Positions 14,859 to 48,607 of a stretch of 64,000 nucleotides of DNA are shown in pieces; positions within the stretch are counted from its first letter, which is position 1, and every line of letters starts with the position of its first letter. A program made the translations under genes and the position numbers. The notes under the pieces are model-generated. The model did not search any database and was not told the DNA's origin. It saw only the letters and a program-made list of their open reading frames with translations. This DNA comes from Andreprevotia sp. IGB-42 (GTDB lineage Bacteria > Pseudomonadota > Gammaproteobacteria > Burkholderiales > Chitinibacteraceae), in NCBI RefSeq assembly GCF_009848685.1, contig NZ_WXTX01000003.1:124001-188000 (forward strand). Reading direction: 5' to 3'.

Positions 14859-15926
14859 GTGAAGAAATCGATTAACATGCCTGCAGTGACCTCCTCCCCG
14901 CACGCCGCCGCTGATGTTTCAGCCACGCCACCCCCGCCACGCATCACGCCGCTGCGCGTACTGCTGGTGCTGTGCATTGCACTGGTGATCCTGGTATTTG
15001 CCTCTGCCTCCAGCGGTGCCGTATCCATTCCGCTGGTACGCATCCCTGCGCTGCTGTTCTCGGGCGCCACCACCGACGATGAAGCCATGTGGCGCAACGT
15101 GTTGCTGGAAGTACGGCTGCCGCGCGTGCTGTTTGCCGTGGTGGTCGGTGCCGGGCTGGCCATCTCCGGCGCCGCCATGCAGGCGCTGTTCCGCAACCCG
15201 CTGGCCGAGCCTGGCCTGATCGGCATTTCGCTGGGCGGTGCACTGGGCGCAGTCGGCGCCATCGTGCTGGGTGCACCCGGGCTGATGGTGATCGCGCCGG
15301 CGGCCTTCGTCGGCAGCCTGCTGGCGACCGCACTCGCCTACAAGCTGGGCAGCCGCCAGAGCGGCGTTGCCAACCTGCTGCTGGCCGGTATTGCCATCAA
15401 TGCCATCTGCGGCAGCCTGATCGGCCTGTTTACCTATCAGGCCAACGATACCCAGTTGCGCAACCTCACCTTCTGGAACCTGGGCAGCCTGGCCGGTGCC
15501 AGCTGGACGCTGCTGGCGTGGCTGACGCCGTGGGTGCTGATCCTGTGCACGCTGCTGCTGCGCGACTGGCGGGCCATGAATGCGCTGCTGCTGGGCGAGC
15601 GCGAAGCGCAGCATCTGGGCTTTGCACTCAAACTGCTGCGCCGCCGGCTGATCATCATTGTCGCCATGCTGGTCGGCCCGCTGGTGGCCGTCACCGGTAC
15701 CATCGGCTTCGTCGGCCTGGTGGTACCGCACCTGATCCGCCTGCCGCTGGGCGCGGATCACCGCTGGCTGCTACCCAATACCCTGATCGCCGGTGCCATC
15801 GGCCTCACACTGGCCGACTGGCTGGCGCGCATGGTGGTCATTCCGGCCGAGCTGCCCATCGGCATCGTGACCAGCCTGATCGGTGGCCCGTTCTTCCTGT
15901 GGCTGCTGACACGGAGGACTGCCTGA
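14859..15926 (+). CDS. hmuU: Heme ABC transporter permease HmuU
   Basis: A 355-residue FecCD/BtuC-family permease with about nine to ten membrane segments. The first is at about residues 28-48 ([20 protein letters not shown]). Family motifs are [24 protein letters not shown] (written here from VRLPR on), [14 protein letters not shown], the [10 protein letters not shown] loop, [13 protein letters not shown] and [16 protein letters not shown]. The start is uncertain: GTG at 14859 has no clear ribosome site, and ATG at 14877, with GAAGAAA upstream, would shorten the protein by six residues. The stop overlaps the hmuV ATG by one base. It forms the inner-membrane channel of the heme importer with HmuV. 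Confidence 0.93.
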
Positions 15927-22838: not shown

Positions 22839-22925
22839 GCCCAGGTGGCGGAATTGGTAGACGCACTAGGTTCAGGTCCTAGCGCTCGCAAGGGCGTGGA
22901 AGTTCGAGTCTTCTCTTGGGCACCA
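22839..22925 (+). tRNA. tRNA-Leu (anticodon CAG), copy 1
   Basis: An 87-base class II tRNA with encoded CCA. The acceptor stem GCCCAGG pairs with CTTGGGC, the discriminator is A, and the anticodon stem CTAGG/CCTAG encloses loop TTCAGGT, so the anticodon is CAG and it reads CTG codons. The long variable arm CGCTCGCAAGGGCG and the GGTTCGAG-like T arm (GTTCGAGTC) are typical of tRNA-Leu. It is divergent from rnr. Confidence 0.96.
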
Positions 22926-22969: not shown

Positions 22970-23056
22970 GCCCAGGTGGCGGAATTGGTAGACGCACTAG
23001 GTTCAGGTCCTAGCGCTCGCAAGGGCGTGGAAGTTCGAGTCTTCTCTTGGGCACCA
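22970..23056 (+). tRNA. tRNA-Leu (anticodon CAG), copy 2
   Basis: Identical in all 87 bases to the copy at 22839-22925, separated from it by a 44-base spacer. It is probably processed from the same precursor, since the only clear terminator follows this second copy. CTG is the dominant Leu codon in these genes, which fits a duplicated decoder. Confidence 0.97.
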
Positions 23057-46788: not shown

Positions 46789-47268
46789 TCAGCCGGCAAA
46801 GTGCGCCAGCATGGATTGCAGGTACTCGCCCACGCTGGCCTCACCCTCGGCAGGCGCCCAATGGGCTTTTTCTCCGCTGCCCAGCGCCTGATACGGCCCG
46901 GCCTTGCTCTCGAAGAACACGCAGCCATCCGAGAGCGCCACCACGCTGTGGAATACACCGGCAGGAATATTCACACCAACCACATCGCCACCGGGTTCGA
47001 TCACGCAGGAGTGCCCGATCCGGCCTGCCGCATCGAAATACAGCACCCCGATCCGCCCGGCCAGCGCAATGATGGATTCGGCCTTGCTCGCATCCAGATG
47101 GCAATGCGGCTGTACATAGGTGCCGGGTGCCAGCGCATTGATCAGGCGGTGACAGGGATCGGCATTATCGGTATGGAAATTGCGGTTCTTGCGCAGCCGC
47201 GGCGCCTGCAGCGCCTCTGCGCCCAGTCTGGCGAGCATGGCCTGGTCGATGAAAAGGGGATCGGTCAT
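46789..47268 (-). CDS. WbuC-family cupin-fold protein
   Basis: A 159-residue single-domain cupin. Metal-type motifs: YVQPHCHLDASKAESIIALA (His-x-His then Glu) and VNIPAGVFHSVVAL (second His). The N-terminal RKNRNFHTDNADPCHRLINA is typical of WbuC proteins, which often lie in O-antigen or fucosamine loci; no such locus is here. The start at 47268 has only GGAC as a weak ribosome site. The T tract of the candidate small RNA lies 15 bases upstream, so expression may depend on read-through from that promoter. Confidence 0.85.
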   Translation of the reverse strand: MTDPLFIDQAMLARLGAEALQAPRLRKNRNFHTDNADPCHRLINALAPGTYVQPHCHLDASKAESIIALAGRIGVLYFDAAGRIGHSCVIEPGGDVVGVNIPAGVFHSVVALSDGCVFFESKAGPYQALGSGEKAHWAPAEGEASVGEYLQSMLAHFAG

Positions 47269-47282
47269 GGTCGTGTCCGGCG

Positions 47283-47371
47283 AAAAAAAACCCGGAACGC
47301 GCGTCCCGGGTTACCAACAACATCTACAAAGGAGAAACCATCAGGACGCTAAGCGCGCGTCGAGACAGAAT
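47283..47371 (-). ncRNA. Candidate small RNA with anti-Shine-Dalgarno motif
   Basis: No protein gene occupies 47269-47515 on this strand, yet it holds a complete transcription unit. Downstream of a good promoter, the inferred transcript (about 89 nt) has a 5' hairpin GACGC-N7-GCGTC (47361-47345). An unpaired TTTCTCCTTTG segment follows; its CTCCTTT (47334-47328) is complementary to ribosome sites. A terminator stem AACCCGGGAC/GTTCCGGGTT with loop GCGC (47312-47289) and a T tract ending at 47283 complete it. Hairpin, anti-SD, terminator is the layout of regulatory sRNAs such as the Neisseria sibling sRNAs. Homology to those is a hypothesis, not shown. The alternative is a terminated leader of the wbuC-type gene. 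Confidence 0.6.
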
Positions 47372-47375
47372 AGGT

Positions 47376-47405
47376 ACTTTACCCAATCCGCACCAAAATA
47401 GTCAA
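47376..47405 (-). promoter_or_regulatory. Promoter of the candidate small RNA
   Basis: On the minus strand TTGACT (47405-47400) and TAAAGT (47381-47376) are separated by 18 bases, a close sigma-70 match in a locally AT-rich patch. The predicted start is an A near 47371. Confidence 0.6.
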
Positions 47406-47515
47406 ATAAATTCAATGCCTTGCACTATCAGAAAGCGCTCGATGGTACCAGTGTCACATCAGCGACCTGAGCGCGGTGGCAGGGTATAATCACGCTTTGC
47501 CTTCCGGTTTGCTCC

Positions 47516-48607
47516 ATGTACCTGCCAGACCCCCGCCTATATCCGCGTGTGAACGCACAGAACCCGGTGATCCGCGCGTTGATGTCCTATCTGACCGAGT
47601 CGGATGGCCACCAGGCTGCGCAGAAGCGTTTGCAGCTTGCCAGCCTGCTGGGTGATCTGATCGGCAGCAATGACAATGCCGGGCTGAACGCGGCACTGAC
47701 GCAGGCGCCTTCGCAGGATGCCTACAAGGTACTGTGGGAGTTGCTGCGTGAAACCGTGGAAAACCCCGCCGGGGGCTGTACCCGCTGGGCGATCCCGTTT
47801 GCCATTCCGGTAGTATTGGTGGCTGGCAGTAAGGGCAACGTCACGCTGCCGGGCGAAATCGATGCCGCAGTGGCATTGGATGCGCTGAAAGCGGGCGGCG
47901 TGATCGCAGCCGATGCGGATGTATGGCTGTCTGATCAATTGCTGGGCCCCGATCAGCTGGCCGCCGTCAGCGCCACGCAACTCACCCGCTGGCGTGATGA
48001 GCTGGACAGCGCTGCCGCCGGCCTGCCACGCCAGTTCGAGCTGGCACCGCTTGCGTTCAAGGACGAAGCGGTGTTCCAGCGCTACCTGGTGGGTGTGGCC
48101 ATCCAGCAGCGCGGTGCGGAAGCTGCCATCAAGCTCAATACACAGCCCGCGCAATGGACGTTGACGCTGGCGCAAAAGCTGGGGGATGCGCTCAAGACCA
48201 ATGGCGTGACCTTGTTCCCGATCCCGCGCACGCCACTGGCGTGGCTGGCCGCCACCGAGGCAGGCCGGGTCACGCAGCTGGAAACCCGTTTGCAGGTGGC
48301 CACCAGCAATGCGCTGCGCAGCATACGCAGCAACGGCCAGAGCCCGGTTGCCACCATTGCCAGCCACGAAGGCGGCGAAATCCGCATCACGTATTCGATC
48401 CGCGAAGACAAGGAGCGCTGGGAGGGCTTCGTATGGCCGCTGGCGCCGCTGGATTCGGCCGAGCGCATCCGCCATTTTGCCGAAGAGCTGTTCCAGGAGT
48501 GCCGGCTGGACGATATCCGTGTCATCGACGCGGTACAGCCAGACCAGGATCTCGACGGCCTGCCCTTCTTCGTGACCGCACACATCAAACCGGTTACCCA
48601 GCAATAA
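47516..48607 (+). CDS. Conserved hypothetical protein, function unknown
   Basis: A 363-residue soluble protein with no signal peptide or membrane helix and no motif I recognise. The first half is mostly helical (NPVIRALMSYLTESDGHQAA, LLGDLIGSNDNAGLNAAL). The middle has TRWAIPFAIPVVLVAGSKGN, and the end looks like alpha/beta (GGEIRITYSIREDKERWEGF, RIRHFAEELFQECRLDDIRV). A perfect TATAAT at 47485-47490 lies 26 bases before the ATG and is the likely -10. I cannot assign a role. The neighbour downstream is a 2Fe-2S ferredoxin 146 bases away. Confidence 0.8.
   Translation: MYLPDPRLYPRVNAQNPVIRALMSYLTESDGHQAAQKRLQLASLLGDLIGSNDNAGLNAALTQAPSQDAYKVLWELLRETVENPAGGCTRWAIPFAIPVVLVAGSKGNVTLPGEIDAAVALDALKAGGVIAADADVWLSDQLLGPDQLAAVSATQLTRWRDELDSAAAGLPRQFELAPLAFKDEAVFQRYLVGVAIQQRGAEAAIKLNTQPAQWTLTLAQKLGDALKTNGVTLFPIPRTPLAWLAATEAGRVTQLETRLQVATSNALRSIRSNGQSPVATIASHEGGEIRITYSIREDKERWEGFVWPLAPLDSAERIRHFAEELFQECRLDDIRVIDAVQPDQDLDGLPFFVTAHIKPVTQQ

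Follow-up and report, generated by a model that had tools for sequence, protein, structure and literature searches.

The minus strand between a DUF2863 gene and a cupin-like gene raises a simple question in the window (the whole 64,000-nt stretch of DNA analysed here): do the promoter, hairpins and CTCCTTT motif found there belong to a genuine regulatory RNA, and if so, to which lineage? A first-pass annotation had proposed a trans-acting type of small RNA (sRNA) with its own promoter and an exposed anti-Shine-Dalgarno (anti-SD) sequence. This reading is still the best supported. The features of the locus are the following:

47516..48607, plus strand: DUF2863 gene (PF11062, domain match), divergent neighbour of the sRNA
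47400..47405, minus strand: -35 element TTGACT (promoter scan; TTGAC kept at the same place in 21 loci)
47376..47381, minus strand: -10 element TAAAGT, spacer of 18 nt (similar TAAA/TAGA hexamers among relatives)
47283..47371, minus strand: predicted sRNA transcript, 5′ end estimated to +/- 3 nt (covariance model R1, conservation)
47338..47368, minus strand: SL1, the 5′ hairpin, CUGUC/GAUGG outer and GACGC/GCGUC inner helix (fold, compensatory changes)
47313..47337, minus strand: linker UUUCUCCUUUGUAGAUGUUGUUGGU, predicted unpaired (probability about 0.83, conservation)
47337-47327, minus strand: anti-SD UUUCUCCUUUG within the linker (conservation, unpaired linker)
47336-47320, minus strand: invariant core of 17 nt within the linker (identical in all 21 loci)
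47289..47312, minus strand: terminator stem-loop, 10 bp (terminator scan, covariation)
47283..47290, minus strand: terminator T tract, whose first two T's also close the stem (invariant among relatives)
46789..47268, minus strand: cupin-like gene (DUF6016), a neighbour outside the sRNA, start codon 14 nt past the T tract

Conservation of the element in Chitinibacteraceae

The near-consensus promoter described in the first-pass annotation is present on the minus strand (TTGACT, 18-nt spacer, TAAAGT) and is the sole promoter-like site in the scanned 0.9-kb stretch, where 0.4 were expected. Similarly, the terminator scan returned one GC-rich stem of 10 bp followed by 8 T's (47312-47289, minus strand; 0.9 expected), that is, the stem and T tract annotated before. 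The terminator alone is within chance expectation and, taken alone, promoter and terminator scans lie just slightly above the shuffled expectation; the case for the element thus rests on conservation. Just upstream of the -35 element (47406-47425, minus strand), a CTTGAATT-like stretch is conserved in several genera and is possibly an UP element or a regulator site.

In a BLASTN search of 61 genomes, the element was matched in 20 other genomes of the family (E 1e-12 to 1e-29). With the covariance model R1, a kind of search suggested with the initial annotation, 21 of 43 Chitinibacteraceae genomes, representing 8 of 11 genera, were each found to hold a single copy. At the window locus R1 scored 87 bits (E 9e-17), its sole match within the window. 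The genome itself holds one convincing copy: the only other R1 match (E 9), a tRNA with a terminator behind it, was rejected. The sequence TTCTCCTTTGTAGATGT is identical in 21 out of 21 Chitinibacteraceae loci and conservation is sharply bounded, with identities per 10-nt bin of 0.97-1.0 in the linker and 0.36-0.5 in the flanks. An exact-pattern scan of genomes matched Silvimonas, Andreprevotia, Amantichitinum, Jeongeupia, Chitiniphilus, Chitinolyticbacter, Chitinilyticum and Formivibrio, as well as one unclassified proteobacterial MAG and one archaeal bin. The latter match ('Archaeon BMS3Abin17', L075) was considered due to chance, lying within an AT-rich ORF and lacking an sRNA terminator. 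We regard it as very probable that the element is a genuine small regulatory RNA, conserved among chitin-degrading bacteria.

Structure and covariation

In the predicted fold of the 89-nt RNA (-28.7 kcal/mol, z -2.0), an open linker of 25 nt separates the 5′ hairpin from the terminator hairpin. The linker, with GUUUCUCCUUUG and the CTCCTTT motif, is predicted to be unpaired with a mean probability of 0.83, in agreement with the unpaired motif first reported, and it is open in the folds of 20 of the 21 Chitinibacteraceae members. The 5′ GACGC/GCGTC hairpin reported at the same time is present, although it had been drawn too short: SL1 also includes the outer CUGUC/GAUGG helix, separated from GACGC/GCGUC by a 2x2 internal loop.

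In the alignment fitted to the model, 96.8% of cells were paired and 6 pairs were changed on both sides, while sliding the partners on this alignment as a control left at most 49% of cells paired. The unfitted joint alignment (31 sequences, 17 of them NmsR) gave 84.9% of paired cells for SL1. Seven SL1 pairs were changed on both sides in joint alignment with NmsR, and none of 500 shuffles reached the covariation score. Judged from these alignments, compensatory changes are present in both helices, SL1 and terminator.

Homology to the Neisseria sibling sRNAs

NmsRa/NmsRb, also described as NgncR_162/163 and RcoF1/2, are sibling sRNAs of Neisseria, and RF02877 is the Rfam family for NmsRb. Acting by anti-SD pairing and stabilised by Hfq, they repress TCA and methylcitrate genes. 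RF02877 aligned with the window RNA over positions 1-91 at 21.1 bits, below its gathering threshold of 52 bits. Searched against 300 genomes of the order, it gave above-threshold matches in 22 genomes. Below threshold it matched the same element, with 41.2 bits (E 9e-5) in Silvimonas and 35.6 bits in Chitinilyticum. The Silvimonas score, the best for any Chitinibacteraceae member, does not reach the threshold, and the branch escapes the Rfam model. The reverse search with R1 recovered the NmsR loci L036-L049 at 34-47 bits, down to E 7e-8. Homology is thus detectable over the full RNA length in both search directions. Over SL1 and linker, Silvimonas and Chitinolyticbacter share 46-48 identical positions of 50-52 aligned with the NmsR loci L041 and L049, with one 11-nt gap.

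These two-way covariance-model matches, the near-identity of SL1 and linker and the shared position next to DUF2863 support homology of the window RNA to the Neisseria siblings, which had first been named only as the closest concept. Both RNAs are intergenic, have their own promoter and share SL1, the linker start GAUAGUUUCUCC, the downstream UUUGUAGA and the terminator. They differ in that the window RNA carries a single anti-SD and has no SL2, whereas of the two anti-SDs of NmsR one sits in the loop of SL2. Also, a tandem pair is reported for Neisseria while the Chitinibacteraceae RNA occurs as a single copy per genome bearing it; genomes of family f27 likewise have just one above-threshold RF02877 copy each. 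No description of NmsR homologs in Chitinibacteraceae or Chromobacterium was found in the openly accessible literature searched. Separately, we observed a tandem pair of NmsR-like RNAs with two anti-SDs and a different SL1 at L093:1-701 (G265:C1), where CTTTGCAGA replaces CTTTGTAGA; here, siblings occur in a family other than the Neisseria-like one.

Absence of an 11-nt module

Side-by-side alignment with NmsR showed that the 11-nt TCTATTTCTCC is missing from 21 out of 21 Chitinibacteraceae members. NmsR reads ..TTGGGATGCAGCAATTGCTTCTTGATAGTTTCTCC-TCTATTTCTCC-TTTGTAGA.. where the Chitinibacteraceae RNA reads ..TTGGGATGCAGCAAGGTGCGTCTTGATAGTTTCTCC-TTTGTAGA.., and the 11-nt difference corresponds to a single repeat unit bounded by two copies of TTTCTCC, of the kind that replication slippage would remove. 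Without TCTATTTCTCC, the RNA lacks the 5′ arm of SL2 (TCTA, which pairs with TAGA in the fold) and one anti-SD. Since two-module forms are widespread in other families, loss of one module in Chitinibacteraceae is the simpler direction, and we infer a loss rather than a gain. The window RNA is very probably an NmsR ortholog in which only one of two modules blocking ribosome sites has been kept.

The single-anti-SD ortholog of Chitinibacteraceae thus apparently arose by an exact deletion of an 11-nt repeat. With two modules, one or none in a largely fixed gene neighbourhood, the loci form a natural series, its 'none' end being three genera without the RNA altogether, and this series would allow a test of what the second module and its loop add. 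The ortholog also puts the metabolic sRNA of Neisseria pathogens into an older environmental lineage.

Gene neighbourhood

The DUF2863 gene adjoins 20 of the 21 Chitinibacteraceae sRNA loci. It flanks, in the same orientation, a further 14 NmsR loci that score above threshold and belong to families f27, f32 and f51, and one f32 locus (L050) also has the downstream cupin gene in common with the window. By gene order, the genomic position is orthologous to the NmsR loci of these three families. The Neisseria-like family f44 lacks the DUF2863 neighbourhood; in N. meningitidis, NmsR is located between dsbB and lrp (PMC5362039), as opposed to the DUF2863-cupin locus of the window RNA. As for the genera devoid of the sRNA (L139, L142-L153), g6 and g11 have adjacent DUF2863 and cupin genes with no sRNA between them, and in g7 DUF2863 is kept and the sRNA absent.

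Alternative explanations

The position of the element allows it to be read as a leader or attenuator, the hairpins forming the 5′ UTR of the cupin (DUF6016) gene and the terminator controlling read-through. The gap from T tract to start codon is very short in the window (14 nt), the cupin gene is also directly downstream in Silvimonas, Jeongeupia and Amantichitinum, and the space past the terminator is too small for a second promoter, so that the cupin gene may depend on read-through. However, the sRNA occurs without a directly downstream cupin gene in Chitiniphilus, Chitinolyticbacter, Chitinilyticum and the NmsR loci L036-L049, which also counters the concern, raised with the original annotation, that only a read-through leader was present. 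Conversely, of the three genera devoid of the sRNA, two keep the DUF2863-cupin pair, and the invariant part is the linker rather than a switch helix. As the sRNA is found without cupin and cupin without the sRNA, a cupin leader as sole function was rejected; genera without the RNA retain its neighbours, and the RNA is therefore not merely a cupin leader. We consider the leader reading improbable, while the cupin gene may still be expressed via terminator read-through. Even less credit, next to none, is given to a conserved DNA or terminator element without functional RNA, or to a short peptide gene. An ATG-starting ORF of 52 codons does overlap the element (47165-47323), but compensatory changes affect both helices, the promoter is conserved and interspecies indels have lengths not divisible by three. 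A coding sequence was rejected on account of the non-triplet indels and covariation, and conservation is not limited to a coding frame, an outcome that would have spoken against the annotated sRNA.

A different assignment, to the RF02278/S17/BdhR1 'toxic sRNA' family instead of NmsR, appears very unlikely, somewhat more so than the cupin leader. RF02278 gave the top sub-threshold Rfam match in the window by E-value (21.9 bits, against a gathering threshold of 50 bits). The general plan, a CU-rich linker and a terminator, is common to both: RF02278, S17 of Bordetella, and BdhR1 and double-hairpin RNAs of Burkholderia combine a CU-rich single-stranded anti-SD module with a terminator, act on RBS regions as predicted or shown, and are wide in Betaproteobacteria. 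The structural similarity of double-hairpin (RF02278) RNAs to NmsRs was noted in a Burkholderia paper (PMC5688073). Unlike the window RNA, this group has the sequence UCUCCUCCAUCCUCCU...GGUGGA and a coq7 locus: S17 of B. pertussis lies beside a coq7-like gene (PMC11722255), whereas the window locus, between DUF2863 and cupin, does not adjoin coq7. Moreover, the window RNA carries the SL1, linker and DUF2863 neighbour of NmsR, and a canonical RF02278 locus is found elsewhere in the same genome, adjoining a coq7-like gene (L157, 50.2 bits, GA 50), which argues that the window RNA is not of the S17 type. This RF02278/S17-type sRNA (L157:1499-1562; G000:C51 ~15672-15735, outside the window) is flanked by a coq7/osmC-like side and rplM-rpsI-like genes, the coq7-like product being read from sequence without a domain search. 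A TCTCCTCCATCCTCC-like match was found in 40 of 43 Chitinibacteraceae genomes. Two anti-SD sRNAs are probably present in the cell, either deep paralogs or RNAs that differ in ancestry.

Proposed mode of action and candidate targets

We thus favour, with high though not full confidence, an NmsR/RcoF/NgncR_162-163 ortholog: a base-pairing RNA of about 88 nt with its own promoter and terminator, whose linker would block the SD regions of a set of mRNAs. Of this model, conservation, structure, homology, positional orthology and absence of the 11 nt are shown. The sRNA would be transcribed from its promoter and end at the intrinsic terminator. Its unpaired linker UUUCUCCUUUGUAGAUGU would pair with several mRNAs at their Shine-Dalgarno regions and immediately upstream of them, presumably hindering ribosome entry by SD occlusion, and the RNA would depend on Hfq. 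In Neisseria, the siblings bind Hfq and require it for stability (PMC9973317), and anti-SD-dependent translational repression by NmsR was established with reporter assays and anti-SD mutants (PMC5362039). The Chitinibacteraceae form would act through one anti-SD in the open linker, not through two with one in the SL2 loop. In N. meningitidis, most NmsR target reporters escape repression once either anti-SD is mutated (PMC5362039), and a one-module ortholog might thus work differently.

The invariant linker consists of the NmsR anti-SD followed by GUAGAUGU. In the own genome, a strong match was found at the entericidin start codon (AAAGGAGAATGACCATG; duplex of -28.8 kcal/mol, z -4.5), and other strong start-codon matches concern phasin and two exported-looking proteins; duplex z-scores are descriptive, as windows were picked for complementarity. 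In relatives, sites found by similarity alone fall mostly on ribosome-binding sites, with 11-17 nt complementary to the linker. They include HPr in Jeongeupia (17 nt at the RBS), a Silvimonas fasciclin-like gene that pairs with nearly all of the linker (-44 kcal/mol), a PhaB-like short-chain dehydrogenase, a SAF-domain protein, PTS IIB and entericidin (Chitiniphilus). The names PhaB and fasciclin were read from sequence: Pfam returned only a short-chain dehydrogenase fold for the former and nothing for the fasciclin-like fragment. HPr was not retained as a conserved target, its 17-nt complementarity being limited to one Jeongeupia among the loci scanned. The start-codon sites in PTS, PHB-related, entericidin and other genes are suggestive of targets, and carbon storage, uptake and envelope genes as likely targets are hypotheses. 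The 5′ regions of gltA and sdhC, the two known NmsR targets compared, showed no special complementarity, and an initial duplex calculation for L166-L183 did not discriminate.

We also counted sites of an SD-free 11-mer, ACATCTACAAA, with the reversed sequence as control: 40 against 10 in genomes carrying the sRNA, 47 against 35 in genomes lacking it. Judged by hand, 5 of 39 sites in the former and 2 of 47 in the latter lie at most 30 nt from a gene start (p 0.15). At 20 nt, a cut chosen post hoc, the counts are 4 of 39 and 0 of 47 (p 0.04), and an automatic gene-start flag, which proved too strict, gave 2 and 0. This enrichment is suggestive only as evidence for targets. The target prediction initially called for yielded RBS-located sites of 11-17 nt, but weak gene-start statistics (p 0.15 at 30 nt). 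More speculatively, and rather doubtfully at this stage, loss of the second anti-SD and SL2 could have enabled a rewired regulon, in which a minimised one-module NmsR pairs by its linker over 11-17 nt or more (SD and upstream CAUCUACAAA) with targets of PTS uptake, PHB storage and envelope stress.

Elsewhere in the window, two tandem tRNA-Leu(CAG) genes (22839-22925 and 22970-23056) were observed with equal Rfam scores.
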